From the NCBI GenBank assembly GCA_964059195.1, contig CAXKWD010000007.1, forward strand, positions 57,165,163 to 57,229,162: 64,000 nucleotides of DNA. The letters run 5' to 3'. This DNA comes from Ectobius pallidus. Taxonomy: Eukaryota; Arthropoda; Insecta; Blattodea; Ectobiidae. How positions within the stretch are numbered: position 1 is the stretch's first letter; the number at the start of each line of letters is the position of its first letter. The translations under genes and the position numbers were made by a program. Positions 27,661-63,925 of the stretch are shown here, in pieces. Below the pieces are notes generated by a model, which saw only the letters and a list, made by a program, of their open reading frames with translations, was not told the DNA's origin and did not search any database.

Positions 27661-28529
27661 TAATTAAGAAGTAGAACAGGCCTTCAACACCAGCCAGAAT
27701 TCTGTGTCGAAATCACCACACTGGAGAAAAAAAGAGTAGGTTTTCATAAGCACTTAATGCTGAGTTGAACAGGTACTCGATAGCTTTAGGCTTGTGGCAA
27801 ATAAGAGTTAATAATTCAGGATTTCCTCTACCTAACGATATGTCATTATTAAATGCTAGTTCATTGAAGTATAGTTTAGAGAAAAAGGCACTTCTAAGTG
27901 AATGCCCTTGACGAAAGCGTCCGAGAGAAATAATACATTACGCTTCATCTCAGCTGATGTCCGTGAACGACAAAGCAGATGTCATGGGAGCGAGGACAAT
28001 CACTCTAGCGGCCGGTCACTCGCGTGATGTCATTCTCCACCTTCTCCTCCACGCTTATTAGGTGTACTAACGTGGGTTCGTGGGCTCTCAAGCGTTACCT
28101 GGTAACAGTAATTCGCAGATCCTGGACGACTTGTAATCTCTTAGGCGTGTTGGGATTCTTTTTTGGGTGAAGTAACTGTTTATGCTTCATATGTTTCCCC
28201 CATCGACGTTCTCGCCCCTTTGTCAGTAGATCTGTCTCTGTTTCCTAAGTCAATCCCTCCTGTATCATTTACGTTGTTTCCCTCTGCTCGTCTTGATTCT
28301 TCTTCATTTTTTCTTTTAACCACGGACCGGCCTTTGCCTCTAACAGAAATGAGTATCAGGAGCTCCCAATTTGAACCTGCCCCCAACATTTCAGTAATCT
28401 CCATCCTAGACAAAACATCTCTTCTTTTTTCTATCCTGTGAATACTGTGACGGGTTTTTGAGGATGTAAAGGTTACTGTTCCTGAACTGAGATGATAAAT
28501 TACTACATATTGCTATGAGGGGAAACCAT
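27661..28529. other. No gene seen between LINE and provirus
   Basis: Mixed-composition DNA. An ORF at 28163-28441 and its antisense partner show no family features. TGACATCACTCGCGTGATGTCA-like words occur near 28010-28035. It may be old repeat or unique intronic DNA. Confidence 0.4.
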
Positions 28530-29563
28530 TGTCATGCCTGGGGAAAGAGACAGGAAATTAGCCGAGCGCCCCTGATTGCCTTAACCCCTAGGATTGATCG
28601 GGTAATGTAGATTAATAGTCCTCACTATCACAAGTACAATATTTATTAACTATAAACAAAAAATAAGACACGTTTATAATAAAAATGTCTAAAAAACAAA
28701 TAAAACTGATTTCTTCTGAAATCATTGCTTGAGTTTAGTTCTACTCGTACAAACTATCAATATTCTTTGTTGCTAAACCTCTTACAAAGCAATTATATAC
28801 TTCCTATAATATTATGAGTATAATATTTATATTAGCTACTCGCGAGGGCAGTTTAGACTGAGCTAACAGCTATTTACTTACAAGTACAATAGAAAAGCAA
28901 TCTGTCCATCTCTTGGCTGAGGTAGGTACAGACGTTCTTTAACTACGTCCCGGGATGATACTTCTTTTATCTCCTCCTCCCGCCGGGGCCGTTCTATCTG
29001 TATCTGATGCTAGCTCTCAAATCGTACTCTGTTATCATATAATCTCGGTAGGAGTTTATATACTAATCTGTACATCCGGCCTACAAGGCTAGCGGATGTG
29101 ATCTGGGTCATCATAAGGGGCAATTCTTAGAATCGTCATAGCAAAGGAATTTTAATTGCCATTTTAATGGAATTCAAATATTAGCCAGTCTGACCCTCGG
29201 TTACACATCATCAATTAGTACAAAAATTAATGAGTGTTGACATACATAAAACTAATTAAATCACACTTGACTACAATGAACTTGCTACATCGCAGGATGT
29301 GTGTAGGAGTTTACACAAGGAATACAATTTTTATAATATTTAATTAGCACACAGCATATGACTTGCTCTTATCTTCCTGTAACACAGGCTGTAGCTTCCT
29401 CTCTCCACAGACTGGGTATTTATCTCTAAAAAATTACCTTTTCGATTTTATACTAACAATTAATAAATACAAATAAACATTAAAATCAATATGAATTAAT
29501 GAACCAATAAAATTGATAAAATTACACATGATGTTACTCATTAAGATGGCCCGTGACATCACA
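28530..29563 (-). repeat. E1 3' LTR (left in window)
   Basis: Begins TGTCATGCC and ends ATCACA in + orientation, that is TGT...ACA. Near-identical to 42484-43520, with scattered differences and a local replacement at about 29106-29122. The junction with the polypurine tract fixes its inner edge at 29563. Confidence 0.9.
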
Positions 29564-29573
29564 CTCCCCTGTC
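29564..29573 (-). promoter_or_regulatory. E1 polypurine tract
   Basis: Read on the - strand, GACAGGGGAG directly precedes the TGTGATG start of the 3' LTR. That is the expected position and composition of the plus-strand priming site. Confidence 0.7.
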
Positions 29574-29714
29574 ACTAAAGGAAAAGGTCTTCTGAAGAAG
29601 ATCGTTTTAGCCCTTTCGTCCAGCACGTAAATGCTCCGTAACGACATCCTCATACCCAGTATATTAGAGAGCGGTTCGCAATTATTTGCACATTTTATCT
29701 GACTGTGCTGTATC

Positions 29715-29967
29715 ATGGATCCATGCCCTGTATACGACGCTTATGAGAGTGACGAAGACACAATTAGCCCTCCGGGGTCGCCAGTAGTGCGTACGGCGTC
29801 GCCGGGGGTGCAGAACGTCGCAGCGCCCCCCTGTACAGCAGCTGCCTCCGGTGCCGTCGCCTCTCCAGGCGCATCCTGTTGTAGCAGGGAACCTGCCCGG
29901 ACCCCTGGTGGAGGCGGGACCGCCACCGGAGCCGGATCATCCCTTCAGGCCCTTCCATCATCATGAG
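29715..29967 (+). CDS. Candidate antisense exon 1 within provirus E1
   Basis: A GC-rich + strand ORF between the 3' LTR and the env stop codon, antisense to the virus. It starts at an ATG at 29715 (MDPCPVYDAYESDEDT, an acidic start) and continues with Ser/Pro/Ala-rich sequence. In the starting frame it stops at TGA 29964-29966, overlapping a perfect donor GAG|GTAAGT whose exon end is 29967. In the next frame the last two thirds are open and strongly Pro-rich through the donor, in phase 0. A one-base change, perhaps in the C run near 29828, would give a continuous exon in phase with 41476. The 3' LTR could supply an antisense promoter. Family unknown. Coding is inferred from composition, the splice site and the matching second exon. 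Confidence 0.45.
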
Positions 29968-30061
29968 GTAAGTTAGTAGACTTAACCTATAAACATTAAA
30001 ATTCATTATATACAATAAAATAAATGTTACAAATGTTTATATCAAATTCTAGATTTCCTTC
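29968..30061. other. Donor site and E1 env downstream region
   Basis: Begins with GTAAGTTAG, the inferred 5' splice site of the antisense gene (intron 29968-41475). The rest is AT-rich and ends at the env stop codon on the opposite strand. Confidence 0.4.
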
Positions 30062-32120
30062 CTAGTGCTTTGCGTACATCACTGCTTCCCGATTAGACTC
30101 TTCTATAGGCGTTACATGGAAAGAAGGTGCTCTTTCCACTGGCACTTCTTCTTGTACTTCTTTACTAATTAATTCCATGGCTTCTAATACAGGAACTGAA
30201 GTACGTGGTTTTCCTCGTCGAGTGCGGTTTGCTATCTCGAGTGATTCTTCCCTTTCTTTTTCTTCTTTATTCTGCCATAACTTATATTTCCGTATCAGTC
30301 TAGTCAACCTGTTCTTAAACACATAAATTAACACAGTGAGTATTACCAAGGCTACTAAAATAGCAGCTAACGACACTGAAAGAGTCTGATGATCTGTTAG
30401 CTCCGGTTCGTGTTGCAGTCAGTCCAGGAATCGATGCAACTGGCTCAAGTCGATTCTTGGCCGTGTTCCAGCGAGGTCCATGTTGGTCGCTGCTTCGATG
30501 CTGGTGTCCATGGTTCGCTGTTCCCAGTTAATCTGGAACATTTCTAATTCCCTTGGTGTGAAAACAGTGTCTATTTTAGGAATCACTATTGCAGGTGTTC
30601 TAAGTTCGTACACAGTTCGACCCATAGAATGTGGTAGTAACTGAAAAGTGCCCCCGTAAATGAAACAATTAAAAGTATTGTTAAACAGGCCTGTGCCGTT
30701 CAGCGACAGGGTCTCTGTGACAGTATTGGCCGCCGGTGGGGTCCCCGTCTGACATTTCTTAGTTACTGTGAGGGGTGCACTTAGACTATAAATCCAGTAG
30801 TCACTTTTCTTATATCTTATCCATCTAGGTGTGAACTGCGGACTCTCTATTATTCTTTGACAGGTTTCCTGAACTCGGTCTGTTCTTCCCAAATACAAAT
30901 TTATTAAACAATTATCTGACCTTTCATCATATAATACATAATCAGCTGGGCAGGTTGTAAACATAGTTTCTTTACATAAATTCAAATCACTCTCAGTTAA
31001 AATAGTAAATAACTGTTGGTTCATCGAAACTGCCAAGTATGTAAATTTCGGAACATTTATTGATATAAACTGATTCAACTCTGATTCAAAATAAGGCAAG
31101 GAATGTGCGTGAAATACTTCAAACTATCTATCATTTCCCTTAAGAGGTATTTCAATAAAAAGTCTAATCGTATCAGGAAAGGCAGCAGCATGCACTTCTG
31201 CTAACCCGTAGTATAAATATGTTGACTCTGGCGTAGGCTTGGCTAACATACTTGTACTTTCCGGTAGATTCATGGAAATTTCACTTAATATTTTCGTAAA
31301 ATTATGTGGAGGTATTAATGTTGTGGACAGTTTACCTATTGAAGTCATATCTAGACTCTCTTGCAACTGCATTAACTGTGCTTTCATATGAAAAATGGTA
31401 ACTTTTATTTCTCTTATTTGAGTTGCAAACTTCATATATCTTCTCTGCTTATCTGCTTCGGACTTCATTCAACTTCGTATTAAATTATCTAAATCTTTAG
31501 CCATTTCCACTATTAATATAGAATTTTGACTAACTCTTTTATCTAACTGCTTAATATATGATTCTTGTTTTTCGGTTGTATGAACCATATTGGTAGCGAA
31601 TCCCTTTAAGTCTGTTACTACTTGATTTATCCTTCTTAAGTCTTTTTGGTCTAGTGTACCAAACAAATAGTTCAACGTATACCCTACTCCATCTCCTAGT
31701 CCTCGTTTTCCTCTACTAGCTTTTCGTATATTCAGTGGATTTAATGCTTTAAAAGCTGCAATATCAACTTCCATTCCATTGGTTAAATTTTGTAATCGGT
31801 CAACTCTCCTAAATAAATGCTACTATCAGCTTCGTCTCGTGTAAAATGTAAAAATTCTTAAATCCTATTCTTAACTCATCTATAGCAGTATTTACACCTT
31901 CGATTAACTTCTCATAATCGTTTAAATGTTTATCCATTATTACGGTCCACTTATCGCCTGTTAATAAAATGTCTCTGTCTTTCACAAAAACCATCCCCTT
32001 ATCCAGTTTTACTTCGTCCGCCTGCGTGGCGTGTCTCGTCACCAATAGACCTGTAACACATACGAAGAAATCTCGCGATTTACACATTTTATTCTGATCT
32101 AGTACGTGAACGTAACTCAT
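30062..32120 (-). pseudogene. E1 env: baculovirus-F-like envelope fusion protein, broken
   Basis: Type I fusion glycoprotein that would mediate entry of an errantivirus. The N-terminal segment (32120-31809) overlaps the pol end in another frame and has a signal-peptide-like stretch near its start. A furin-type site RGKR followed by GLGDGVGYTLNYLFGT, the F-protein fusion-peptide pattern, lies near 31715-31660. The ectodomain continues through 31124 and 30419. A transmembrane segment (about 30374-30315) and a Lys/Glu-rich tail end it. Breaks: a frameshift between 31809 and 31774, in-frame stops at about 31469 and 30419, and damage at about 31124-31100. Not functional. Confidence 0.8.
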
Positions 32121-33578
32121 ATCTACGCTGGGGGAATTCTACATTATTACTACCTCTTTGTATTTCTACATCTACATTTACATTATCTCTACGTACATTA
32201 TTTCTATTTACAATGTCTCCATGGACATTATTTCTATTTTCACTAACCTCTTCTGCTCTCACTCTCGAGCGCAATTCATATCTGTCAGTTACTACTTCGG
32301 CTGATGTACCAGCTCTCGGTCGAGTATGTGGTAACCACTCATCTCCTGACTCAGTTAAGCTTAATGATTCGTTCGATGTATCTTGTATATCACCTATGTC
32401 ATCTGACTCACTACATCTGAATGGTTTAGAACATTCCGCCATTTCATATTCTTCGGGTTCTCCTACAATGGTATCTAGCTTTAAATGGTTTCTCTCAGTT
32501 CTCTCGGTAGCCCTAGTACTACCTTTCTTTACCAACGGATACTTTTCCGTCGTTATTGGCACTTTGCACTCTTTTAGCCGGTTTACATGCACTACTACTG
32601 TACTTCCATAATCTTTTTCTAATCTATATGTTACATCTGAGGTCCGATCTACAATTTCCTAGTCGGCCCTTTCTTTGCTATAGGATTATAGAGGTACGCA
32701 TACTCGCATACTTGAAATCCTCTCATCTTTTTACCTCTATCGTAGTACTTATTGGAGGTTTCCTGACCTCTCTTATTGGCTGCTTGCACTGATTCATATG
32801 CCGTTTTTAACCTCTCGGCCAGCACTTTTATGTGCGTTTGATAATCGTTGGGTTCCTCTTTCGACATTCTACAGACGTCTTCCATTGGTAGCCTTAACTC
32901 TCTACCAAAAACTAAATAGTGCGGACTATATCCCGTCATTGAATGTGGTGTACTCCGGTATGCAATTACCGCATACGGTACGTACTCGTCCCATCGTTTC
33001 GCGTCTTTAGATACGAAATGCAAGACCATATCGGCCAATGTTTTGTGAAACCTCTCACAAATTCCGTTACTCTGCAGGTGATACGCAGTTGTTTGTAACT
33101 TTGTTACTTTCAATAGCTTGCACACTTCTTGAAATAACCTCGATAAAAACTTTGGGCCTAGATCTGAGATCAACGCCTTCGGCGAGCCAAATTCTAACAC
33201 TATTTTCGACACAAACTCTTTGGCTACTATTTCTGCACTTTCGCTCGGGACTGGTATTGCAAAACAATATCGCGTGAAATGATCTACAATCGTTAACACA
33301 TAACGATTTCCCAACTCTGTAGTAGGTAATACTCCTACGAAATCTGTAGATAAAATCTCTAGGAATTCTGATGCCTGCGGCGGTTCTGCTAAAGGCACGA
33401 TTCCTGCGGTTCCTGATTTTCTTCTCGCACACTTATCACACGTACTGATAAACTCTTCTACATCCTTTCGTAACGTATTCAACCAGTATTTCCTTGAAAT
33501 ACGCGCAACTGTTCTATGAACACCTTGGTGTCCAGCGAAATGTGTATCATGATAATATTGTAATACTACAGGAACCAA
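32089..33578 (-). pseudogene. E1 pol: integrase and C-terminal tail
   Basis: The 33578-32649 section encodes the zinc domain (H..H then CDKCARRK) and the DD35E core: STDFVG with the first Asp, ISDLGPKFL with the second, and QSNGICERFHK with the Glu. This is followed by the usual RSTPHSMTGYSP segment and part of the C-terminal domain. A frame break near 32650 leads to 32592-32089. That part has VNRLKECKVP, a long acidic and Ser-rich tail, and two copies of a YELRSR(T/V)R motif before the stop. All catalytic acids are present, but the frame is interrupted at both ends (stop near 33579). Confidence 0.8.
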
Positions 33579-35436
33579 TTATGTCGGAATGACTACTCCG
33601 TAACCAGATATAATCTGTTTGCTTTGTTTAAACATCAGACCGTTATTCACTCTGAAATCGGGATACCTTTCTTTTTCTTTTGGTATTCCATACAAGACTC
33701 ATCGCTTTTCTGAGCTTACAATATAGCTTCTGTACTCAAGTTTTTCTCACAAAACATCATCGCTACGTGACGACTCAAGGCGTCAGCGTGGGGTAACTTC
33801 CGGCCTGCGCGATGCACAACAGTGAAGTCGAATTCTGCTAAACGTAAACTCCATCTGACCAGCCTCGAACTGGGGTCTTTTACATTTTACATCCACATCA
33901 AAGCTACCTGGTCAGTTACCAAAATAAAAGGATGCCCATATATGTAACATCTAATCTGTTTAGTTGCAAAGATAACCGCTGCCAGCTCCTTCTCTGTCAC
34001 ACTATAATTAATCTCGGCTTTATTGTGTTACCTCGAGCAATAGGCTATAGGCCTCTCGTGCCCATCATATTCCTGTGACAACACAGATCTGATAGCGGTC
34101 TTCGACGCATCAGGGGTCACAATAAATACTTTAGAAAAGTCAGGGTACGCTAACAAAGTTTCGGTGCTGAGTATTTCCTTCAGCGTCTCGAATGCTTCTT
34201 GTTGCGCGATTCCCCACACAAAATCTGTGTTTTTACGCGTTATAGCAGTTAATGGACGTACTATTTCCGCAAAATTATGGACATGCCTCCGATAGTACGA
34301 AGCCAACCCTACAAAAGATCGTATATCCTTAACATTAGCAGGTACTGGATATTCCTTTATTGCTTTGACTTTATTAGGGTCTGGTTTTAACCCATCACTA
34401 GTAAAAATGTGTCCCAAGTATTCTACTTGATCCACAGAAAACTGGCATTTTTCTGGTTGAATCTTGAAATTAGCTCCTTCCAATCTTTGGAATACTTGCT
34501 CCAGTTTCTGAGCATGTGAGCGTATATCTGGCGTAAATAAAATAAGTTCATCAAGGTACGCAAGAACGTCCATTCCCATTAAACCCATAAGAATAGAGTT
34601 CATACAAGGAGAATACGTTGCAGGTGCGTTACATAGACCAAAACAAAGTTTATTGAAATGAAAATGCCCACTTTTGGTGCTGAAAGCAGACTTTTCTCGG
34701 TCTTTCTCTGCTCTCTCTATCTCCAGATACCCACTGGCCATATCTAAAACTGAAAATACCTTACTCTGGCCTAATGAATCTATAATAAACTAAAACTAAA
34801 CTAAACTCCGTGGCTCTACATCCCTGAAGGGACTTGGCCTACCACCCGACCGCTGCGTCATCTCCCGTAGGCAGATGGCAGGATTGGGGGGCATGTGGTC
34901 AGCATGCCGACACCCACGATCATATCAGTGATATTTGGAATCTGGTATGCATCTATCTTCGTCTGGGCGTTCAGGGCCCTCACGTCTACACACAGGCGCC
35001 ATATTGGTTTGCCATCACGTGACTTTTTAGGCACCATTACAATGGGACTATTGTAAGGTGAATTACTCTCGGATATGATGCCCCTTTTTAGCATATCTCT
35101 TATTTGCTCTTCCACTATCGGTTTTAATGCGTCTGGAACTCTATACGGCCTTTTTCTAAACCGTTTTGCATCACCTGTATCTATCTCATGTTTTATCTTA
35201 CTTGTGCAGCCTATTTCCATACTGCCTTCTCTATAAAATAAGTGCTGATATTTACTTAGTACTCCGGCTATGATTTCATTATCTTCCTGGCCCAAATGGC
35301 TTAATTTCTCTACTAGGTATTCATTAAATTGTCCATAGGCAATTTCCTCTTCCAAAGATAACTCTGTATCTTCTACTTGCAAGATACCATTTACGATACC
35401 TTCCTCGGAGATTGGCTCAATTTCTCCCAATCTACT
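33579..35436 (-). pseudogene. E1 pol: reverse transcriptase and RNase H, broken
   Basis: The N-terminal RT (35430 to about 34920) has RKRPYRVPDALKP, NSPYNSPIVMVPKK and LCVDVRALN. A SINE at 34784-34917 interrupts it. The palm resumes near 34770 with FSVLDMASGY (first catalytic Asp), GLCNAPAT, then AYLDEL in place of the usual Y-x-D-D: Glu at 34547-34549 replaces the second catalytic Asp. The connection and the start of RNase H run to 34028 (TPDAS, then AYCSR). From 34027 to 33579 RNase H remnants are frameshifted. The enzyme is inactive on several counts. Confidence 0.8.
34784..34917 (+). mobile_element. SINE fragment inserted in E1 RT
   Basis: Starts with AACTAAAACTAAACTAAACT and continues TCCGTGGCTCTACATCCCTGAAGG, then GACTTGGCCTACC and GACCGCTGC. 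This is the head of a SINE family widespread in insects (GTGGCGCTACAGCCC...GAAGGGC type). It splits the RT coding sequence between ITDMI and DSLGQSK on the opposite strand. The exact target duplication was not resolved. Confidence 0.65.
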
Positions 35437-35777
35437 GCCTTTATTTATTTATTTATTTATTTAATCAAAAATGAACATTACAGGTATACACCCAATTACA
35501 ATGTTCATGACTATACTAGCAATACATCATGTGGTTACAATAACACAAATATGAAGTAGATATTATAAAAAGTAGAAAAGTTAGAATAATGACAATATAA
35601 GTTAAGAAGTAAAGAGAATAGGAGAGAGTAAAGAGAACAAGAGACATAAGGAGAAAGCAAGCATGAAGGATGTAGAGAAAAAATAAAAATGAAATAAGAG
35701 TGAAACAAGTAAAATAAAACAGTGAAAAATATGTTAGTTGACAACGGTGTTACTATTCATACACAGATTCCTATGAA

Positions 35778-38700
35778 TTACCATGTTGGACAAGTTTTTA
35801 ACAGTCGGCTTGCAGCAGAATTAAATTGTTTAAGATTCATTCCAAATATATCTATATCAAGTGGGTGGATTTGATTGTACCTATTCAAAGTTCTGTTTAT
35901 TGGTGAATTTTTGTGTATTTCTGTGTTTACTCTAGGAGTAAAAAATAGTTTTCTTAATGTACTATTTTTACTGGGTACATATATATAAATTTCTTCTATA
36001 AGGTTTGTATCATCAATATGGGAATTAATTATTTTATACAAAAAACTTAATGACTGACATGCTCTTCTATGTGTTAAAGCTCGGAATTCAAAATTTTCCA
36101 GGAGTTTATCATAATTCATATCCAATGGATAATAGCCACAAACTTTAAACATTAAAAACTTGTGGAATTTATTTTGTACTTTTTCGATTATATTTTTGTT
36201 TTTTACAGTAAATGGATCCCAAATGATAGATCCATATTCCAAATTTTGTCTAACGAGAGAATAATACAAACGAGTTAATGTTTTCTGGCTTAACATGTAT
36301 GAATATCTCATTATGAAACCAAGGATTCCCAATGCTTTCCAAACTGTTAATTCTATATGTTCATTAAATCTTAGATCAGAAGTAAAAACAATACCTAGAT
36401 ATTTTTTACTTTTTACTTGAAGTAATAAAATGTTGTCAATGCTATAATCAAATATAATGGTTTCTTTGCATCTTGCAAATGTCATTTTTTCACATTTTTT
36501 AATATTAAGTGGTAGTTTGTTATCTGTACTCCACTTTGATACTGAATTAATATCAGTTTGAAGCTTATAACAGTCTTCTGCTGAATTTATAGATTTATAT
36601 AATTTGACATCATCAGAAAACATTTGAATACAGAATTTTATCCGGCAAATCGTTTAAAAATAATAAAAATAATAGAGGACCCAGGGTTGATCCTTGAGGT
36701 GAGTGTGTCCGGCTTAAACGTATAACATTTCATCATTTTATTACTAGACACGTATTGATGATATTTATAATCTGTTTGCTTCTACGGGTAGAGTAACTCG
36801 AAATTTTTTTTTAATAACCTAATAAACCTCGATATGAGCACCATTGGTGGCACGGCAGACGTCCAATCTGTATTTCACCTCTCTCCATGTTTTTTGCAGC
36901 ATAGCAGGTCTAACATTTGCGATGGCGCAGATCTGGTAATCACGAACTAGTGTCTGGTAAACCTGATTCTTGACGAACCCCCACAGAAATAGTCGAATGG
37001 CGTAATGTTTGCTCTTCTAGGGGGCCAATCGATCGAAGGACTACCAAGCTGGATTGGGCGAGGTAGTCCTTCGATCGATTGGCCCCCTAGAAGCCCAGAC
37101 ATTACGCCATTCGACTTTTTCGTTAGGGGTTCGTCAAGAATCAGGTTTACCAGACACCAGTTCGTGATCTACCAGATCTGAGCCATCGCAAATGTTAGAC
37201 CTGCAATGCTGCAAAACACACGGAGAGAGGTGGAATACAGATTGGACGTCTGCCGCGTCACTAATGGTGCTCATATCGAGGTTTATAAGGTTAGTAAAAA
37301 ACATTTTGAGTTACTCTACCCGTAGAAGCAAACAGATTGTAAATATCATCAATACTTGTCAAGTAATAAAATAATGAAATGTTATACGTTTAAGCGGGAC
37401 ACACTGCATAGTATCAATTTGTTTCTACTCATCTAATTCAGATGATATGTATTCTGTGAAGTTACATAGATTGGCAATTGTTGATCTCTTAGGCATAAAA
37501 CCGTGTTGTTTTGATGAGATTGATAGTTTAACATCATTGAAAATATGTTTATGTAAAATGCTTTCAAATATTTTGGCTGGTGTTGATAGAATTGCAATGG
37601 GTCTATAGTTTTGTACTAATTTCGTATTTCCTGATTTATAAATGGGTGTAACTTTAGTAAATTTCCACGCATCCGGAAAAATACTCTTTTCAAGTATTTT
37701 ATTATATATCAGGGTTAGTAGATATGCCAATGCTTCTCCACAGCCTTTAAAGATATAGGTGGGTATTTTGTCTGGCCCAGAAGATTTTGTTGATTTTAAC
37801 TGTTTTATGGTCTGTTTCACTTCTGTAATAGTTATTTTTTTCAAATCAAAATAGTCCAATTCGCTATTGATCGCATTAAACATTGGATTGTATGTAGTTT
37901 GGTTTGTGAATACATTGATCTAAAATAGTCTGCATATCCATTTGCAATTTCAACATTTGTTTTTAAAGATTGGCCATTAAATACCATCTCCACATTAGAT
38001 TTGAGTTGTTTTCTTTTACCTTTTATAAAATTCCAAAATTGGTTGGTATTTTGCGATATATTCTCTTCTATATTCTGTAGATAAGACCTATAAGCTAATT
38101 CAATATCATTTTTAATTCGGGCCCTGCAAGCTTTATATAGAAACAAATAGTACTCTGAATCATCTTTCTTCTTTCTGTACTTTTCATTAAGTTTGATATT
38201 TTTTCATAATTTGTTTTGTGAACCAAATGGGATACTTCTGTTTATAACCTCTTGTTTTAGGAACACATTGATCTATAACTGAATGTAGCTTATTGTAAAA
38301 CATAGTAACAATTTGGTTTAAGTCATGGTAGTTATTTAAATCATCCCATGTGCAATCTCTTAAGAGTAAATATAACCTATTAAAATCAGCTCTACAATAA
38401 TTGTATCTATTTATTGATTCTATATTACTTTTGTTACCCCGGGTTGTTCTATAGAGTAAACTTAAAGGTGGGTGATATGTGTCTTTAGGCACTAATTTAT
38501 GATCGTCTTCTGTAATATTTAAATTCATATTTGTTAATACTAAATCTAGCGTTCTTCCATTGATATTTGTTATATTGTTTACTGACTGTAAACCTAAGAG
38601 AGTTAATAATTTATACAGTTCCTTTACCTTATTCCTACCTGTACTAAAATCGCATGAAGCATCACAAATCTCAGGTAAATTGAAGTCACCAAGTACAACA

Positions 38701-39110
38701 GTATTACAACCAAATAAAACTATATTTTGCTCAATTTTCTCATAATGTTCAACGTAAGAGTTCAAGCTGGAGTTTGGAGGAAAATAAACTGTACCTATAA
38801 TATACTTGACACTATTGTAATAGACTTTCACCCAAATTGATTCATTATTTGAGTCTAATGAGAAAATCTGCTCTGGTCTTAATGAAGCTTTAATTGCTAA
38901 TAGAACACCTCCCCCTGGTGTTCGTGAGTCTCTGTCTTTGCGAAAACTACTTATCTGCTATCAAACAATTCAGAATCAAAAATACTATTTGTTAGCCAGG
39001 TCTCTGATAAATTTATAATATCGAAATCAGAGGAGAGAATATTATTGTAAAATATTCTAGACTTAGTTCTTAGACCTCTTACATTTTGGTAGTAAATACT
39101 AAGTGTCGTT
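35778..39110 (-). pseudogene. LINE ORF2: endonuclease and reverse transcriptase, broken
   Basis: The endonuclease starts near 39100 (YYQNVRGLRTK), with DIINLSETWL holding the catalytic Glu, then GTVYFPPNS and LGDFNLPEI with the Asp/Asn pair, in pieces down to 38187. The linker (38146-37841) is followed by RT: SSGPDKIPTYIFK, NYRPIAILS and KQHGFMPKRST (37883-37425). The 702-bp foldback then replaces roughly the motif A region. RT resumes with SPQGSTLGPLLF near 36690 and the catalytic FSDD at 36620. The thumb and C-terminus follow to the stop at 35778 (RLLKTCPTW). That last part, 281 codons, is open. Without motif A the enzyme is dead. Confidence 0.75.
36703..37404. mobile_element. 702-bp foldback element made of two mariner-like 3' ends
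   Basis: Near-perfect palindrome: left arm 36703-37045, right arm 37062-37404 (343 bases each), with a 16-base loop. Ends read GTGTGTCC(G/C)GCTTAAACG. Within each arm, reading outward from the centre, is the C-terminal coding region of an IS630/Tc1-mariner-type transposase, with WPPRSPDITPFDFF (the last catalytic region) and GAHIEV near the end. So two copies of the transposon 3' end are joined tail to tail, with no intact transposase. It sits in the LINE RT, where about 70-80 codons are missing. Confidence 0.8.
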
Positions 39111-39279
39111 GGATTACTCACTGTCTATAGATAATGGGAGTCAAACTTATATAGAATTTTGAAATGTTTGTAGGTCTTCTTCTGATGCAATAGCCTGGAT
39201 AGGTGTTGCTTGGCCTTTCCTCATGAAGATTCTCCCAATACGTGTCCACAAGAATTTTACATTGGAAATTCGTCGCACT

Positions 39280-40416
39280 TCACGGCATTTCGCTAGGAGA
39301 CGTCTTCTTGTGGGGCAGATTCAGTACAATCTCTTCCTCTGAGAGATTCACTATACTAACTGGAATTGTATACATCTTATTTAACTTCACATACACCTGC
39401 TGGGACGGATTTTCTAATTTACTCTCTGCGCAAAATTTCTGTTTGCCAAGGAACTGCGCATGATCCTTCCCAAGGCGTCCTTGGTTCGAGCTCTCTCCTA
39501 CGGGGTTGAGAGGCTGAACTGCTTGTGTCCCACAAGAACACCTTTGTGCGATCGTCTCTCCCATTAACTTTTCTGTTCCTGACGCAGACCACCGCCCACT
39601 GGAAGATTGAGTACTTTGATGCCATTCGTCCTTCGGAATTTCACGAGGCTCTGAGGGAACACATTGGGGACTTTCTGTCAACAGGGAGCAATTCCCCGGG
39701 GTACCAAAAGGATCCTTACACAATTTCACAATAGCGCGCGGTGAATATAAACCTGGTAGTAGGGCTTCTACCGGTTCGAACACTGCATAAGGGGAATCTG
39801 CAGGGATGTTGCGCCCAACAGCCCTAGCACGGACTATCGTCCCAACAAACGGAGAGCATGCAACCATTTCCGTTAGGATGACCGATGCAAACCAACCTGG
39901 AAAGTTATCCAGACCAGGCTCCTCGAGCTCAGTGCGGCCATCTGTAGGGTCCAATGCCTGAAGCGGGGTGATCAATCCCTGAGCAGAGGGTTCCCTGCAG
40001 CCCATTCCATCTCGCTCGTCGACAGGCGAGACAGCACCCAGCCAGCTACATATCAGAGGAATCGGCTGGCCTCCCACCAAGAGGCAGTTAGTTTGCAAGT
40101 CTAGTTGCGCTCCAACCTTTCGTAGGAAGTCGACACCCAGTATCCCATCTCCAGGGGAACTCAAGTCACTCACTAAAAATTCATGTTCATAGGACCTCTC
40201 GTTAACATAAAACGTGACTTTCCGTACACCGTCCAGCTCTAAATCTGTTCCAGTTATACCCCTAGCCGTTATACTACTTTCTTCAAGTCGTGCAGAACTT
40301 ACTGTAGGTTTTAACAATGACACAGCGGCTCCGGTATCCGCTAATAGCTTACGCTTCGTTCCCTCTATTTCTACTTCTAGCAGCAGTCCCGTCGCCGGAC
40401 TAATCGCTGCTGGCAC
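39280..40416 (-). pseudogene. E1 protease and adjoining pol N-terminus
   Basis: Open for 378 codons. The retropepsin active site KLLADTGAAVSLL lies near residue 30, with the flap region following and GILGVDFLRK as the second conserved hydrophobic-Gly block. It cleaves the Gag-Pol polyprotein. It lies in a different frame from gag (which stops at 40434), as expected for translational frameshifting. The remaining 250 residues are a long linker of low similarity, and the frame stops where the LINE interrupts pol. This is one of the better preserved viral frames here. Confidence 0.7.
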
Positions 40417-40433
40417 GTCTTCTTGCTTCGGCT

Positions 40434-41385
40434 CTACTTTGGGAAGACCGACGGGGTTGTTTTGGTCCCCCCTACCCCGTTTAAACCTTGGCGCCCCTCT
40501 CGCCTTTTCTTACAATATTTAGCTATATGCCCCAACTCCCGACAGTTATAACATTGGTAACCCCTACGACCACTCGCGCTCCGGTAACCGTCGTTACCCC
40601 CTCGCGCTCCTTGCGCGGGACTCGATCCATTGGGACCAGGATCACGTGAAAGCCATCCTTGCTGTGCATTACTGCCACTAGCGTTTCTTTCACTCCAGTT
40701 ATTCCTATAACCTTGTCTATTATTACTATTATTATTGTTGTTGCTCCAATGTCCTCGTCCTGCTGCCCTAGAACCACCACCACCTTTATTTTGCGACTGT
40801 ACGCCTCGACTTTCGTAAGTAAACACTTGCGCGTGAGCCTAAATGCGCGTTTTATCTATCTTTGTTTCTGCCTGGGCTGCCATGGTGGCTATCTTTATCG
40901 CTTTATCCATTGTCTCGGGCATTTGGTACTTTACTTGCAACCCAGGGTTCCCCTTTAACCCGTTAATAAAACTAGCTAGTAACCTTTTCTCTGCTTCTTC
41001 ATTAATTGCCCTTTGTTCAGTCTCATCATCGACTGTTCTAATAGTTTGTCTACTTAAACGACGCAGACGGTCAGCAAAGCCTGCAATCGACTCATCCCTT
41101 CCCTGTGTCGCTGCCTGCAACTGCGAGTAATAAAAAAAATCAGTGTGCTGCTCTTTAAATCGCTCCTTAAATATCTCTTTTAACCTCGTGAACGTAATTT
41201 CTGCTTGCAATTCGGGGTGTGTATCAACAAATGTCTGAGCAGCTCCTAACACTTTCATAATAACTAATCGAACTTTATCTTTATCGGTTAAATTACCCAA
41301 CTCGGCTGCAGTTTCTATATTTCTCAAAAAATTTGCAACCGGTCTACCGCTTTTAGGACCCCATCCTTGTATTCATCCAGCCACA
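40434..41385 (-). pseudogene. E1 gag: capsid and nucleocapsid
   Basis: The capsid part is readable from about 41380 and open from the ATG-equivalent at 41327 to 40839 (FFYYSQLQAATQGRDESI, then a Glu/Arg-rich helix region and ASFINGLKG). An in-frame TAG at 40839 separates it from the nucleocapsid part (40826-40434). That part is rich in Gly, Asn and Arg and ends with one zinc knuckle, CYNCRELGHIAKYC. Upstream of about 41385 the frame meets a stop and no N-terminal gag sequence follows; the + strand exon occupies that place instead. Confidence 0.75.
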
Positions 41386-41475
41386 GCCAGATCCTTCACC
41401 CTAGTTTCCTGTGCTTGGCCATGGCAAGCACATCACTATCACAACTAATGTACTTTAATTTCTTGACTGTTTCAG

Positions 41476-41745
41476 TTGATGCCGACCCTGGGTGAAAGGG
41501 CCACCTATCTAGAGGTTGTACGTCGCCGCGTCTGCCGACGATGCCGTAGGGTGGAGGAGGTGACCTACCCGGTGGTGATCTCCCTGGCCCACGTTCCTTG
41601 GCGTAGGTTCCAAAACTGGCCCTTCCTTCAGGCGGATTGCGTCCCGGATGAGGCTTTTAGCTTCCGGGTGCTGTCCGCCGAAGGAATGCGGCGGGTCTCC
41701 GAGGAAAACGAACGGGCGGGTCGGTGCGGGGCCTACCGCCGATAA
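41476..41745 (+). CDS. Candidate antisense exon 2 within provirus E1
   Basis: An intact GC-rich 89-codon frame on the + strand, antisense to the virus. It begins directly at a strong acceptor: pyrimidine-rich CTTTAATTTCTTGACTGTTTCAG with an ACTAATG branch-like word about 30 bases ahead. It ends with TAA, and AATAAA follows at 41772-41777. The protein has an Arg/Cys-rich helix-like run (VVRRRVCRRCRRVEEV), then YPVVISLAHVPWRRF, FLQADCVPDEAFSFRV and a charged C-terminus. The basic run could bind RNA or act as a nuclear signal. Codon use is G/C-ending, unlike the AT-rich neighbours. The phase matches the candidate exon at 29715-29967. Family not recognised. Alternatively it is a captured host fragment. 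Confidence 0.5.
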   Translation: MMPTLGERATYLEVVRRRVCRRCRRVEEVTYPVVISLAHVPWRRFQNWPFLQADCVPDEAFSFRVLSAEGMRRVSEENERAGRCGAYRR

Positions 41746-41986
41746 AAAAAATAACTGACTGAATTGATTTAAATAAATATAATATAATAAACTATATCAA
41801 TGGTCTCTTTATTTACTGGTGTAAAAATGAAACCCGCATATCCTCACTCCTAGAATTAGCAGTACTATACATAGGCAGATAGTCTTTTCTCTCTATCTCC
41901 AAAGTGTTATAGTCGTGTGTGGGTGGTATATATCTAATTACAATCCTCACTTCTAATTAAAAAATTACAGCCAAACCTTCTCCGTG
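41746..41986. other. Antisense exon 3' end and E1 leader
   Basis: Starts with an A run and AT-rich sequence containing AATAAA at 41772-41777, a plausible poly(A) site for the + strand ORF. The rest shows no coding potential on either strand. Confidence 0.4.
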
Positions 41987-42274
41987 TTAGTATTTATAAA
42001 TCTTCTGGATGGGAACGTTAAAGTGTTTAGGACGACCCTCGAATGCAATATCTAACCTGGACTCAGCTATAAGTCCTCTAAATTTATGTTCGTGCTCCTG
42101 TATCCTAGATACATCTATATCTGTAAATTTCTTGAAAAATCTTTCCACTAATTCCTTGGCATACTTAGTGGATCCATGCACGGCTAACGTATTCGACACA
42201 GGAAGTACTCTCACTAAGAGAAGTGTAAACTCTTTATCACAGGGATCTCGACGTTTCCAACAACACAACGCCAT
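41987..42274 (-). CDS. E1 95-aa ORF between primer site and gag
   Basis: First ORF after the 5' LTR on the virus strand, starting MALCCWKRRDPCDKEF about 200 bases downstream of the primer binding site. It is intact for 95 codons. The composition is protein-like (VERFFKKFTDIDVSRIQEHE) and ends in PKHFNVPIQKIYKY. It could be the N-terminus of gag cut off by the antisense exon region, or a separate leader protein. No known family is recognised. Confidence 0.4.
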   Translation of the reverse strand: MALCCWKRRDPCDKEFTLLLVRVLPVSNTLAVHGSTKYAKELVERFFKKFTDIDVSRIQEHEHKFRGLIAESRLDIAFEGRPKHFNVPIQKIYKY

Positions 42275-42470: not shown

Positions 42471-42481
42471 CGCTGCCACCA
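42471..42481 (-). promoter_or_regulatory. E1 primer binding site, tRNA-Leu type
   Basis: Two bases inside the 5' LTR, the - strand reads TGGTGGCAGCG. This is complementary to a tRNA 3' end CGCTGCCACCA, as in insect tRNA-Leu (acceptor CGCTGCCA plus CCA). The match is 11 bases, then diverges. Confidence 0.6.
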
Positions 42482-42483
42482 GT

Positions 42484-43520
42484 TGTCATGCCTGGGAAAA
42501 GGGACAGGAAATTAGCCGAGCACCCCTGATTGCCTTAAAACTAGGAATTATCGGGTAATGTAGATTAATAGTCCGCACTATCACAAGTACAATATTTATT
42601 AACTATAAACATAAAATAACACACGTTTAGAATAAAAATGATTAAAAAACAAATAAAACAGATTTCTTCTGAAATCATTGCTTGAGTTTAGTTCTACTCG
42701 TACAAACTATCAATATTCTTTAAAGCTAAACCTCTTACAAAGCAATTATATTCTTCCTATAATATTATGAGTATAATATTTATATTAGCTACTCGCGAGG
42801 GCAGTTCAGACTGAGCTAACAGCTATTTACTTACAAGTACAATAGAAAAGCAATCTGTCCATCTCTTGGCTGAGGTAGGTACAGACGTTCTTCAACTGCG
42901 ACCCGGGGTGATACTTCTTTTATCTCCTCCTCCCGCCGGGGGCGTACTATCTGTATCTGATGCTAGCTCTCAAATCGTACTCTGTTATCATATAATCTCG
43001 GTAGGAGTTTATATACTAATCTGTACATCCGGCCTACAAGGCTAGCGGATGTGATCTGGGCAGTTCAGACTGAGCTATTCTTAGAATCGTCATAGCAAAG
43101 GAATTTTAATTGCCATTTTAATGGAATTCAAATATTAGCCAGTCTGACCCTCGGATACACATAATCAATTAGTACAAAAATTAATGAGTGTTGACATACA
43201 TAAAACTAATTAAATCACACTTGACTACAATGAACTTGTTACATCGCAGGATGTGTGTAGGAGTTTATACAAGGAATACAATTTTTATAATATTTAATTA
43301 GCACACAGCATATGACTTGTTCTTATCTTCCTGTAACACAGGATGTAGCTTCCTCTCTCCAACAGACTGGGTATTTATCTCTAAACAAATTACCTTTGCG
43401 ATTTTATACTAACAATTAATAAATACAAATAAACATTAAAATCAATATGAATTAATGAACATAAAAAAATTAATAAAATTACACATGATGTTACTCATTA
43501 AGATGGCCCATGACATCACA
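42484..43520 (-). repeat. E1 5' LTR (right in window)
   Basis: Partner of 28530-29563. At 43061-43077 it carries GCAGTTCAGACTGAGCTA in place of a different sequence in the other LTR. The same words occur 260 bases away at 42801-42818 within this LTR, so the difference is a local templated copy. Confidence 0.9.
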
Positions 43521-43682
43521 CATCACACACTAACCTACTGAACAAATCTATACTTGAACTACTATTCATTGCTCAGTCCAAAACACTATTACATTCCTAT
43601 GTAATAATACTCTGAAACACTGATTCTACCAACCAAAATTAATAATAAAATTCCTAAAAGTGAAATTTGGAATCGCGTTTAA

Positions 43683-58941: not shown

Positions 58942-61009
58942 TTATTTTTTTTGAACTCGTTCCTTCATAGCAGTATCTAATAATGTATCAAACTCTTTCA
59001 CACTCTTCCTGGAATCTTCTTGTTGGGTTGCATTGTTACCTTGTTCGTATTCACTATCATCTGATTCCACGTAATTTCTTCTTTTATTACCTTTAGTTAT
59101 GGTTACTTTATTCTTGTTTATTATTTGAGGGCGTTGATAGCATTTTTTGCAATCATCAAAACATGCCTTGGGATTAATGTTACTTAATAATTTATAAGAA
59201 CATTGTCGGCAACAATTACAACAGCAGCAAGAAACAATCCAAATTACAATTAAAAACACCATACAACTTACATAAAACCATATTGAATAATAATATTCAG
59301 ACCATTCACTGTTATTGTGTATTCTTTCCTTTTCATCCTCAATCATTTTATTTACCTCTTGTATTTTATATCCAGCAAATTTAAAATCATTTAAAGATGA
59401 TAATATATTTTGAAAGGGCAAATTGATAGAATGATCAGCCAACTTAATTTGATCATCGATATCCAAGCAGCAGTCATTACTTAGTGGTGCTACAGGGATA
59501 ATATCTAATTTTGAATTATTATGAGTTTTTGTTTGAAGGGGGTGTATCATTCCTGACACAGTAATGCCTTTGCATTGCTCATTCATTATTAATCTTCCTC
59601 GACCCTTAATGTTTAACTGATATCTCTGATCAGGACAGATGCTTGTGAAAAGTTCAGATCTAGGAGCCACAAATAACCATTCGTTATTATCTTTTAGTGG
59701 TATCCACATGGACTGTGTGAGGGGTAAGTAAGACATTTCTAAGTCACACACCTCTGGCACATATTGTGTAAATGGATGCAGCAGAGTAGGAACACATTCC
59801 TTCTCCGGGATATAATTATAAATGGGTACATTCTCCTTACATACGTACGTAAAATAATTTGGCTTTTTACAATCATGAAATTTCTCAAAATTAAGATACA
59901 CATATTTTGTCTTAACTAAATCAGTAGCTATATAATCATGGGTAGATTGTATAAATTTTACAGTCATATTTCCTTGCATTACTACAGGAAAGGGAGCAAT
60001 TTGATAAATATAAAACTTTTGTTGTTCTAATAAGGGTACCTTGATCACATAAACTAACATTTGATTCTGAGTATACACCACTGGTTCCATCAATTTCATA
60101 GCCTGACTTCAAGAGAAAGGAGGTATAATATTTTCCTGACTTACCTCTTTTCTTAAAATATCATTAATGCTCTTATAAGTAATGATATGAGGTTGTATCA
60201 CACCATTCTGTGCATTCATATAAGCATCTATTAACAAATCATAGCTTTGCTTACATTCATTTAAACCAATCTCTATATGTCTGATTTTAATATTAAGAGA
60301 ATTAATTACATTGGATGCTAGTTCTTTCTTAGAAAGACGTTCATTTATTTCATGCTGAAATTTGTTAAATTCATCAGATATTTCTTGATCATTTCTCATC
60401 AATTCTACTAAAGAGGTGTTTACAGTTAATAATGTAGATTTTAATACTGTCATTTGATCAGAACTAATTTTTTAATAATGTCATTGATCTTTTCTTACTT
60501 TGTTTATTTGATCCTTATATTTATTGATTTCGGCGTCAGTTGCCGTACCAAATAATATCTTTGACAGCTCTCCAACAAAACCTAATACACTTCTTTTTTC
60601 TTTGTCATTTCTAACCTTAATATCTGAAATTTCTGAAAATATTTGAACAGTTCTTTCAACTAATACTCTTTTAGATTCTACATAATATTATACTAGATTC
60701 GCAATCTGTCAAAGGATACCAGTCTTCCTTATTAAATTGCTGACATTTTGCCTACAGTACATCTATTTGTTTCCGAATATTATTCCATAATGTGTTAACA
60801 TTGTTCACCTCTACGTAAGTGATAATTTCCCATTGATTTGAGTACAACCACATTTCTCCTAAATAATCAAAATATATACCTCCACTTCCATCTATCGGTT
60901 GTATTTTTAAATCTTCTTCACCATGTAAATTGCTTGGGCATCCCAATATTACTATTATTATTGTTATTCCCACGTATAATAACATTTCGTAGCTGACCCT
61001 GCAACACAA
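58942..61009 (-). pseudogene. E2 env: baculovirus-F-like envelope fusion protein, broken
   Basis: The N-terminal part (61009-60752) has a hydrophobic signal peptide and GIYFDYLGEMWLYSNQW, the usual start of insect F-like Env. A stop at 60752 and then a frameshift follow. The furin-type KEKR, followed by SVLGFVGELSKILFGT (fusion-peptide pattern), is readable near 60605-60550 in an ORF with no start codon. The heptad-rich region is 60453-60109 and a single in-frame TGA at 60109-60111 precedes the large C-terminal part (60099-58942). That holds paired Cys, a transmembrane helix near residues 280-300, a Cys cluster and an acidic cytoplasmic tail of about 85 residues. It would mediate membrane fusion but is inactivated. 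Confidence 0.8.
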
Positions 61010-61859
61010 GGTTTTATCGGGTCACTCCCAATTATTCTAGCATTGCTCTTACTTAAATTTAAGTATTTTCTTTGTGTAATATGACCTAAATTTACTTTCT
61101 CATACATTTTACCATATGCACTTATTACTCATGCAAATTAAATCTTCCTTACACAGTATTTATTGAATAGTTTCCTCTTAATTATTTTTTTAGTTTCCTT
61201 TTATAATTTACCTAGATTTACGTATTACAGCAAATCCTCTGTATCCTCTATTTCTGCTTCAAATAAAGTTTAGATTGATTTTAAATGCTTTTACTCGTGT
61301 TTCTTTACATTTTATCTTGTAAATATTCCTGACAATATTACAGCAAATCTTCTCTATTCCTGACATTAATCACTTAATTTGATTTACCTCTTTATTGTAA
61401 ATCCACTTCATTCTCAAGCTATCCTCAACTCACTTAATGTTTGCTCATGTCCCTTTTATTTTATTTTCCCTTGATTTCTTGTTATCGTCCCAGACAATAA
61501 TCAATGAAATCCTCTCTATCCTCGACCAACAACACAGAACACCTGACAGCACAAGATATTCTCAACACATTACCTTTATGTGTTACAACTCTATGCAGTA
61601 TTCTTACAATGACACCCATGTGTCTATTTTCACAACACAATACATTTATGTGTTACCACTCTATATTTTTGCAGTCTTCTTACTCTATATTTTGCAGCCT
61701 TCCTACTACGACGACACGTGTCCACTATAACTTTCTTTAGTTACCACTTTACAATACCATTTTACAATACAATATGCATATTGATTTTCTTCTCTCAAAC
61801 TGGAATTTCTCTCACTAACTACCTCAGTGGTTAGTTTTCTCACTTCTTAGTCCTAACGA
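61010..61859. other. E2 pol-env interval, no clear gene
   Basis: AT-rich. The + strand ORFs at 61437-61740 come from local direct repeats (CAACACA...TACCTTTATGTGTTAC). It lies between the integrase C-terminus and env and may contain the env splice acceptor. Confidence 0.4.
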
Positions 61860-63295
61860 CTAATTATCTAAGACTTGACCTGAAACATAAGGCCTCGTCC
61901 GCGTAATATGTGTATGGAGTACTTTTCTCCCATCATTACCCAACTTTCTTAGCTCTACATTTACTCCCATTATTTTCTTTAACTCGACGGCCCATGCCAG
62001 ACTGAATCCAATTTCCGGCGTTTCTCCCTTTTTACTAGGACTAAATCCCCTATCTTATACTGCGGATCATTCACCTTTTGCTTACTTAATTCGCAAGTCT
62101 TCTCCTTGCTCCTAACTAAATTTGTTCTTGCTTCTTCCCAAGTCTGCTGAAATTTCTGTTTTACACTTCGTACATAATCTTCTTAATTATATAACACTTC
62201 TGGTTTTTTCTGTAAAACTCCTGGTATGTTAGCCTTCCTACCGAACATTACTTCGTACGGTGTGAACTTTGACTGGGTGTGAGGTGTTGTATTATAGTTA
62301 AAAACTGCAAAGGGTACCCACCGGTCCCATTCGTACTGTTTTTCTCTACAGAAACATCTTAAATACTCTACTATCACTTTATGTGACCTCTCGAGACTAC
62401 CATTTGACTGTGGATAGTAAATACTCGTGTTCATTTTGCTTATTTTTAACATTTTACACAATTTATTCATCAAATCACTTGTGAACTGTCCGCCTAAATC
62501 CGTCAAAATTTTACATGGGATTCCGTAAATTAAAATAATATTCTCCATAAGAGCGGAAGCTACACTTTCAGATGTTTGGTCCTTCATAGGAACTCCGATA
62601 AGATACTTACTTAAATTATCTTGGCATGTCAATAAATATTTATTTTCCTTCTCTGACTGTGGAAAAGGTCCTACTATGTCCAAAGCTATTTTGTCCCAAG
62701 TTACCTCACTAGTATCCGTTTGCTCGAATGGTAGTTTTACCGTTCTATTCGCATGTTTGTTTAATTGACAAATATTACATTTACGAATGTAGTTTTCTAC
62801 ATCTTGGAACAAGCCTGTCCAATTTGTGTATAGTTTAATCCTCTCAAACGTACGTTGTATGCCATTGTGCCCTCCAACTGGACAAACATGAAATTCCTTT
62901 AAAATCCTCTTTTTCCTATTTTCTGATATCTCGGAAACGTTTTCTACCATAGCAGTGGTCGGGTACCTGCTTAAGGAATCTACGTGTAAAATATTTGTAC
63001 CGGCTCGATGCACTATCTCGAAGTCATATTCTTCTAATAGTAATCGCCATCTTAAAATACGCGAACCTGGATCTTTTACGTTCATAAGCCATTTTAAGGG
63101 TTTATGATCTGTTACTATAACAAACTTTTGGCCCAAGAGGTAGGGTCTAAAGTGATTACACGACCAAATTATACTCAGAAGTTCTCGTTCTGTCGTTCTG
63201 TAATTAATTTCTGCGGGTGACACTAAACGACTAGCATAAGCAATTGGTTTGTCTTCTCCTATTTTTCCTTCACTGAGAATGCTACCTATAGCTTA
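61860..63295 (-). pseudogene. E2 pol: RNase H and integrase
   Basis: The open frame 63223-62183 (346 codons) begins within RNase H: TTERELLSIIW (catalytic Glu), TDHKPL (Asp) and HVDSLSR. The integrase zinc domain (H..H, then CNICQLNK) and DD35E core follow: ALDIVGPFP, LTDLGGQFTS and YPQSNGSLERSHK, with all three acids present. After the stop at 62183 the C-terminal domain continues in another frame (about 62160-61860; GDLVLVK). An in-frame TAG at 63293-63295 separates RNase H from the RT remnant. Confidence 0.8.
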
Positions 63296-63925
63296 GCTGC
63301 TACTGTCAGTGGTCAGAATAAAATTTTTACTAAAATCATTAAATTGTAACACTGGGTACGTCATTAAACACTGTCTTAATTTATCAAAACTATTTTTCTC
63401 TTCTTGCGTCCATTTCCAAGGATTATTTTTCTTCAATAATTCAGTTAACGGCTTCGCAATTTTACTAAAGTCTGGAATGAATCTTCTATAATATCCTACC
63501 AAACCAAGAAATTATTTTACTTCCTTTTCTTTCGTAGGGACAGGAAATTTTTCTATAGCCTGTACCTTGTCGCGATCTGGTGCTACGCCATCTTGACTTA
63601 CAACATGCCCTAAGTATTTTAATTCTGATTTCAAAAATTAAAAGCTCTACTACCTATCTATTTCTTCCTGATGATTTTGCGGGAGTCTATATGACTTTAG
63701 ATTAATTGGGCGTATATTATCTACGCTCGGGGTCGGTATGTGATGTTTAACTCCTTTTATTTCAGCTAGCCTATCACCCGGTAATCTAAATACATCGTTG
63801 TATTCACAACATATTGCTTTTATTTCTTCGCTACCTTCCTTTATATGTGAAAAGCGTAACTTTCTCATTAATAACGCATTTCTGTCTTGGGGGTTTCTTA
63901 CTATAGCGGATTGTTTGACACTCAA
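63296..63925 (-). pseudogene. E2 pol: reverse transcriptase with core deleted
   Basis: 63925-63650 covers the region leading into RT (HHIPTPSVDNIRPINLKSYR, then QNHQEEIDR) and stops. Directly beyond, at about 63640-63505, the frame gives ELKYLGHVVSQDG and FPVPTKEKE, which normally lie after the catalytic Y-x-D-D, then GYYRRFIPDFSKIAKPLT and DSSS. So the palm, including all catalytic Asp, is missing between about 63636 and 63650: an internal deletion. This copy cannot reverse-transcribe. Confidence 0.75.

Follow-up and report, generated by a model that had tools for sequence, protein, structure and literature searches.

Can the whole coding region of an endogenous retrovirus serve as the intron of a gene read from the opposite strand? 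The question is raised by a provirus, here called E1, that lies in a stretch of 64,000 nucleotides from the blattodean insect Ectobius pallidus (assembly GCA_964059195.1, contig CAXKWD010000007.1, positions 57,165,163 to 57,229,162 of the forward strand; hereafter the window, with its first letter as position 1). E1 carries its sense genes on the minus strand between two long terminal repeats (LTRs). A preliminary description of the window had proposed a two-exon gene on the plus strand, opposite to the sense genes, with one exon in each of the provirus's two end spacers. As far as sequence can tell, this antisense two-exon gene is real beyond reasonable doubt. The best explanation of the locus as a whole, to which we assign a probability of about 0.85, is a selected antisense gene that gives rise to a presumably spliced RNA and an accessory protein.

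In the window copy, exon 1 (29715..29967, plus strand) lies between env and the 3' LTR and encodes an acidic, proline-rich N-terminal half. It is followed by the splice donor GTAAGT (29968..29973, plus strand), which ranks second among 3447 GT dinucleotides; the only plus-strand occurrence of AGGTAAGT in the window is at this donor. The predicted intron (29968..41475, plus strand) comprises env, pol and gag together with a nested LINE-like insertion, and closes with a branch-like ACTAAT at 41444, a pyrimidine tract and the acceptor AG at 41474-41475 (41444..41475, plus strand). Among 3157 AG dinucleotides the acceptor ranks 97th and is one of five with a CTAAY branch motif in range, both rankings being relative to the score matrices used. 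Exon 2 (41476..41745, plus strand), situated between gag and a small leader open reading frame of the sense strand, encodes a basic C-terminal domain with a CxxC motif and two further, mostly conserved cysteines, and ends on a TAA stop. The AATAAA 3' of the stop (41772..41777, plus strand) is weak evidence, the stretch being AT-rich. GC content is 0.64 in the exon-1 block, which ends GAG/GTAAGT, and 0.22 over the next 100 nt; it is 0.63 in the exon-2 block and 0.24 past its TAA end. Within E1, 250-nt segments with a GC content of at least 0.60 occur only in these two blocks (next best 0.584). The exon-1 ATG has A at -3 and G at +4; its frame stops at a TGA just before the donor, and a different frame is in phase with exon 2. 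Both blocks, the donor, the acceptor and the stop lie where the preliminary description had placed them. Taken alone, the window is suggestive and leaves the case for a gene undecided; it is the sister copies that settle it.

These copies were sought in the window's own genome (2.12 Gb, 410 contigs). DNA searches returned six matches to exon 2 and nine to exon 1, the window copy included each time, and protein searches (E <= 0.001) returned at least 79 and at least 52 matches, respectively, counts that are lower bounds for repeats, include the window, and in some cases represent pieces of one copy (e.g., two at each of C8:24.96 Mb and C1:71.42 Mb). An exon-2 match lies 3-20 kb downstream on the same strand for 46 of the 52 exon-1 matches, compared with 0.016 expected if matches were evenly scattered. 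The paired exons are a median of 7,581 nt apart, and 37 of the 46 pairs fall within 7.2-8.2 kb, which bears out an intron made of all of env, pol and gag. One pair (C12:5439021) arose when our script joined an exon 1 to the exon 2 of a nested element, and most of the 46 belong to one recently amplified class and hence are not independent events. In that class (L031-L050 and further matches) the exon-2 protein is identical in all 20 loci read and most spacings lie close to the median. Intronless retrocopies were not found among the matches compared (contigs C1, C2, C4-C7, C9 and C12), where three close pairs proved to be neighbours in the wrong order. A separate observation concerns C12:5.39-5.57 Mb, where nine exon-2 matches lie on one strand within 170 kb and exon 1 follows exon 2 by 2.2-2.5 kb three times, an arrangement that tandem proviruses would give if they had an LTR in common; this may be a tandem array or a one-strand locus resembling a PIWI-interacting RNA (piRNA) cluster.

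For a closer comparison of exon 2, 21 loci including the window were chosen for diversity from the 79 matches, a sample from which class frequencies are not derivable. TTTCAG precedes exon 2 in 21 of 21 loci, with CTAAY within 45 nt in 16. Behind exon 1, GTAAGT is found in 16 of the 17 loci read, 14 times as GAG/GTAAGT; L009 ends short of the donor. Exon 2 can be read only as a continuation, because 11 of the 21 loci have Ile or Val in place of the Met near its start. Six copies of exon 1 (L008, L010-L013, L015) are open in a single frame up to the donor, for which reason the frame break in the window's exon 1, already supposed in the preliminary description, belongs to this copy. It is absent from sisters of the same exon-1 type: L008 reads on, and L009 likewise as far as it extends.

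Substitution patterns indicate that purifying selection acts on both exons in the predicted frame. In its plus frame, exon 2 has a ratio of nonsynonymous to synonymous differences (pN/pS) of 0.18 among four intact copies (window, L002, L003 and L005; the frameshifted L004 and L006 are omitted), and its variable columns number 12, 7 and 36 at codon positions 1, 2 and 3 (36 of 55 at the third; hypergeometric P 4e-8). Of the other five frames, the -1 frame reaches a ratio of 0.20 but contains 4-5 stops per copy, and the remainder give 1.3 to 4.5. Separated by the sequence classes described below, exon-2 pN/pS is 0.18 (I), 0.16 (III), 0.11 (second family) and 0.31 (II, a single pair). For exon 1, with L007, L009 and L014 omitted, comparison of L008 (type A) with the other five open copies (type B) gives a ratio of the corresponding rates (dN/dS) of 0.33-0.36 at a dS of about 1; within type B there are few changes, and single-pair ratios range from 0.14 to 0.62. 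Length differences in exon 1 are of 6 and 12 nt. Both reading frames are present and conserved in sister copies, and selection, paired exons and splice sites together bear out the element-encoded gene with phase 0/0 that had been put forward for the window.

Some copies with both exons open are recent. Their paired LTRs differ at 4 of 1024 (L053/L011), 1 of 1006 (L055/L012) and 2 of 1032 positions (L058/L008), and those of L063/L013 at 11 of 787 aligned bases. By this sequence measure the first three insertions are young and the window provirus, with an LTR difference of 4.7%, is older.

As to how the gene would be expressed, the preliminary description had it driven by the 3' LTR, a claim that needs refining. 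A block upstream of the ATG contains the TATA-like TATATTAG (29660..29667, plus strand), a candidate antisense promoter that is invariant in 15 of 15 aligned exon-1 loci; the ATG of this alignment was located by protein pattern and is present by construction. Because the invariant TATATTAG sits outside the LTR, in the spacer between LTR and ATG, an internal promoter is possible. So is a further, non-coding leader exon, given sites resembling donors and acceptors on the plus strand of the LTR and the spacer (28922, 29409 and 29622). The RNA would start near TATATTAG, just inside the 3' LTR, cross the whole provirus, be spliced over 7.6 kb (11.5 kb in the window copy, nested insertion included) and then be translated. 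Translation of exon 1 is unlikely to begin at the first upstream Met, which in L007 and L009 has a stop codon after it; in L071 and L072 the upstream frame is closed. Across exon-1 types, the stretch 29596-29690 upstream of the antisense ATG is more evenly conserved than the stretch adjoining the ATG.

The predicted product would have about 155-175 residues, some 65-85 codons coming from exon 1 and about 90 from exon 2, with an N-terminal half that is acidic, proline-rich and probably disordered, and a basic C-terminal domain that contains cysteines. The exon-1 protein has an acidic stretch and Ser-Pro repeats first and a PDHP(F/Y)RPF core near its end (PDRPFRPF in L014). Ten aligned exon-2 alleles share 19 invariant columns, including W48 as well as C20, C23 and C55, the candidate metal ligands in a comparison with small zinc-binding regulatory proteins; C84 is nearly invariant.

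Exon 2 stands out from its surroundings by its diversity. For L002-L005, identity to the window is 93-97% in gag and in the small sense open reading frame 5' of gag (sORF), and 83-87% in exon 2; for the more distant L006 it is 87% in gag, 91% in sORF and 77% in exon 2. In L026 and L030, identity drops to 46-71% per 100 nt in exon 2, with 88-99% in the flanking gag and sORF stretches. Four exon-2 classes are found in the window's family: I (window, L051-L053), II (L055, L058), III (L056, L057, L059-L062, L064) and IV (L063, L069). Among 12 copies, the mean amino acid distance in exon 2 is 0.124 within and 0.444 between classes (0.113 and 0.436 without L069, which is frameshifted near its end), whereas the same copies grouped by exon-2 class give 0.037 within and 0.036 between for gag, 0.081 and 0.081 for the LTR, and next to no difference for sORF and the gap. 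At synonymous sites (pS), the gag capsid differs by 0.116 within and 0.120 between classes, and exon 2 by 0.67-0.77 between them. In Mantel tests on 11 copies (L057, L060, L061 and L064 omitted), exon-2 distances show no significant correlation with gag (r 0.05), LTR (r 0.10, P 0.23) or sORF (r -0.02); LTR and gag are correlated with each other (r 0.73, P 0.0005). A rerun on 10 copies, also without L069, gave -0.02, 0.08 and -0.18 for exon 2 and 0.76 for LTR against gag. CpG decay was considered as a source of this island of divergence and is not supported, with 3-6 CpG-site transitions among 12-45 differences per pair. The types of the two exons also reassort: A+I (window), A+II (C7:39.04 Mb), B+II (C9:27.08 Mb), B+IV (C1:73.74 Mb) and B+I (C7:57.92, C12:5.44 and C19) all occur. 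A second family, at a gag distance of about 0.19, has its own exon 2, with a pN of 0.37-0.43 to the four classes compared with 0.21-0.30 among them.

Several points weigh against a functional antisense gene. In the window copy, open-frame length is not significant at this GC content (no-stop P 0.03 for exon 2 and 0.09 for exon 1, before correction for six frames), exon 2 by itself shows no significant three-base periodicity (P 0.12), the codon-position score of exon 2 is negative (-4.2, sd 2.3), and block 1 is open on the sense strand as well. Conserved exon-2 residues are missing in single copies (C23 in L062 and L063, W48 in L063, C84 in L054). As the preliminary description had remarked, the protein resembles no known one, with no Pfam, PHROG or PDB match of note; no homologue of exon 2 was found outside this genome in searches that covered exon 2 only and included viral and prokaryotic collections, although the viral negative is weak because that collection yields no integrase relative either. 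Single-sequence folding is uninformative, a reverse-strand control having a higher pLDDT (62.4 against 57.6) and a lower pTM (0.17 against 0.40), and Foldseek returned nothing for the predicted structure at E <= 0.001. The element might itself be disturbed by RNA polymerase II travelling through 7.6 kb in the direction opposite to its genes, transcription and splicing are predicted from conserved signals in DNA, and the view of exon 2 as an exchangeable cassette is drawn from the 21 chosen loci. The non-significant length of the open frames would be the strength of an account by chance, or by unrelated GC-rich insertions of different age, the latter a danger that the preliminary description had itself raised; this account is refuted by selection acting on the two exons and by the pairing of 46 among 52 exon-1 matches, and its probability is negligible. 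That the blocks are sense-strand features, either GC-rich structures of the genomic RNA or an Arg-rich sense frame in block 1, agrees with the 66 open sense codons of block 1, whose extent matches GC change points at 29767-29952, and with the folding of the exon-2 block, which is stronger than that of shuffled sequences (z -3.4 for the plus strand, -1.8 for the minus strand). However, all three sense frames are stopped in six of seven sister exon-1 loci (last 198 nt; the exception is L014), exon 2 matches the plus frame in its codon-position pattern, its stronger fold belongs to the antisense strand, and block 1 folds no better than shuffles on either strand (z 0.76 and -0.33). The sister-copy stops and the plus-frame codon pattern refute this reading as a sole explanation, and it is extremely improbable. 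Two separate antisense genes with exons that are never joined would suit the open frame and ATG in each block of the window copy, but hardly the Ile or Val at the exon-2 ATG in 11 of 21 loci, the retained donor and acceptor, or an unbroken exon 1 that lacks its own stop before the donor; we regard this as very unlikely.

What the protein of a selected antisense gene might do is a matter of weaker preferences. A nuclear regulator of the element's own 5'-LTR transcription, with classes matching LTR types, would resemble HBZ and APH in position and strand, as far as these are covered in the available parts of the sources (PMC10186651, PMC8622228). Its acidic, Pro-rich part and basic domain would fit such a role, as would an LTR more divergent than gag. 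Against this stands the independence of exon-2 class from the LTR already described, with r not exceeding 0.23 in any 60-nt stretch of the LTR across 11 copies; a regulator that works by way of a host cofactor and lacks LTR specificity stays compatible with the data. We consider an HBZ-like regulator unlikely on balance. Somewhat short of even odds, our preference goes to an accessory protein whose variable binding partner comes from outside the element and is most likely a host factor that limits or controls the element; the remaining share goes to neither role. Such an external partner is favoured over the element's own LTR because the exon-2 alleles are old, each is under constraint, and recombination swaps them between nearly identical backbones without regard to the LTR. 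More tentatively still, the antisense gene may be a specificity locus, whose exon-2 (and exon-1) alleles would predate today's backbones, being maintained by diversifying or frequency-dependent selection while recombination shuffles them between copies. Each class would then answer another version of a host restriction or control factor, or mark copies that interfere with their own class, and antisense coding with the virus as intron would tie expression to an integrated full-length provirus. Alternatively, the classes could stem from repeated introgression from distant families, with no selection for diversity. Recombination is frequent in retroelements, and the second family does carry a related exon 2. 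As the only donor considered, however, that family has an exon 2 farther from all four classes than these are from each other, and gag, sORF and LTR have no such classes; we find repeated introgression rather doubtful.

The element that carries the gene is, by its gene content, an errantivirus-like Ty3/gypsy endogenous retrovirus: it has LTRs, a zinc-knuckle gag, protease, reverse transcriptase-RNase H, integrase and a Baculo_F env, the genes being recognised by Pfam as frame-broken pieces. All of its sense features lie on the minus strand. The 5' LTR (42478..43521) and the 3' LTR (28525..29564) are 95.3% identical over a 1046-nt alignment, and the best-scoring sense-strand acceptor-like site of E1 (9.6) lies at the inner end of each copy (28539 and 42493). 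From the 5' side, gag (40434..41327) consists of zinc-knuckle and capsid pieces (zf-CCHC, Retrotrans_gag), the protease region (39280..40416) matches RVP, and the reverse transcriptase and RNase H pieces (34028..35430) have RVT_1 and RNase H domains within 34028-34738; at a threshold of 0.01 Pfam matches nothing in 34858-35427, whose assignment follows from its position. Integrase (32649..33578; H2C2, rve) has 27 relatives in the protein collection, mostly on unnamed contigs, the two named ones being from the dragonfly Ladona fulva. The env fragment (30419..31099) matches Baculo_F at E 9.9e-8. The LINE-like insertion in pol (35778..38831), identified by weak RVT_1 matches and an endonuclease match, lies within the antisense intron and is not part of the antisense gene; inside it, nested inverted repeats at 36702-37405 (138, 110 and 107 nt) are 91-94% complementary. 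Likewise separate from the antisense gene is sORF (41987..42274; pN/pS 0.23 in 12 equal-length copies), which has a closely similar protein in the second family and whose sister frames run past the window copy's stop; it may be a further accessory gene or, as in ZAM, supply a leader exon to env. A second, different errantivirus at 58942-64000 (minus strand), cut by the window end, has a longer Baculo_F env (E 1.7e-18), and no antisense exon was recognised in it by eye in the list of open reading frames.

Most known retroviral antisense protein genes come from deltaretroviruses and HIV; plants have antisense open reading frames of unknown role. HBZ of human T-cell leukemia virus type 1, APH-2, APH-3 and APH-4, and AS1 and AS2 of bovine leukemia virus are, in the portions of two reviews available, antisense, transcribed from a promoter at the 3' end and spliced, HBZ and APH being protein-coding (PMC10186651, PMC8622228). 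With HBZ and APH the present gene shares antisense coding and splice sites, here conserved sites with predicted splicing. Unlike the exons of HBZ, as these are reportedly laid out, and of APH, the second exon here lies upstream of gag, and the intron is the whole gag-pol-env region. The host element also differs from that of HBZ in being a Ty3-like errantivirus with a Baculo_F env, and its alleles reassort between copies. Pfam found no basic leucine zipper domain, as in HBZ, in the antisense protein, and there is no detectable sequence relation. In plant Ty3/gypsy elements, the stretch from pol to the 3' LTR holds antisense frames (Grande gene 23, RIRE2, Retand TRP28), gene 23 has its own promoter, and a regulatory or DNA-binding role has been suggested, according to the sections available (PMC7264820, PMC11963269). 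Exon 1 alone resembles these plant frames (aORF-3R) in its location, with the coding region on one side and the 3' LTR on the other. For a further exon close to the 5' LTR those sections offer no counterpart, the word "intron" occurs 0 times in either paper, and the TRP28 domain (PF04195) has no match in the antisense protein.

Among insects, micropia of Drosophila hydei has antisense RNAs of 1.0 and 1.6 kb without protein-coding capacity, as summarized in part of PMC7264820; the present gene shares the antisense orientation on an insect LTR element, with transcription here predicted, and unlike micropia it is protein-coding. Drosophila errantiviruses (gypsy, ZAM, springer, idefix) consist of LTRs, gag, pol and an F-type env spliced from upstream exons; this splicing is on the sense strand, and the available part of the source mentions no antisense gene (PMC12992720). 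Another paper on insect endogenous retroviruses deals, in its available part, with piRNAs (PMC13172572). "Drosophila" and "gypsy" have 0 occurrences in the two reviews of retroviral antisense genes (PMC10186651, PMC8622228), and titles and abstract openings in the literature searched, with subscription papers outside its scope, name no insect antisense accessory gene.

The present locus adds an antisense gene in a relative of insect errantiviruses, with gag-pol-env as its intron, selected in dozens of copies, some of them very young. The function of such a gene becomes testable in an insect, and the search for a partner of the antisense protein becomes a concrete experiment. The allele classes suggest a conflict whose fast-changing side is the antisense protein and not Env or Gag. 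Subgroup cassettes are familiar from the receptor subgroups of retroviral env and from the immunity regions of phages, and exon 2 is like them a short, highly divergent and interchangeable segment in a uniform backbone. Unlike in the env subgroups, the variable segment here is the antisense gene, and it is env that stays uniform, its pieces being 93-96% identical to the window (L011, L012, L015-L018; 90% in the more distant L014).

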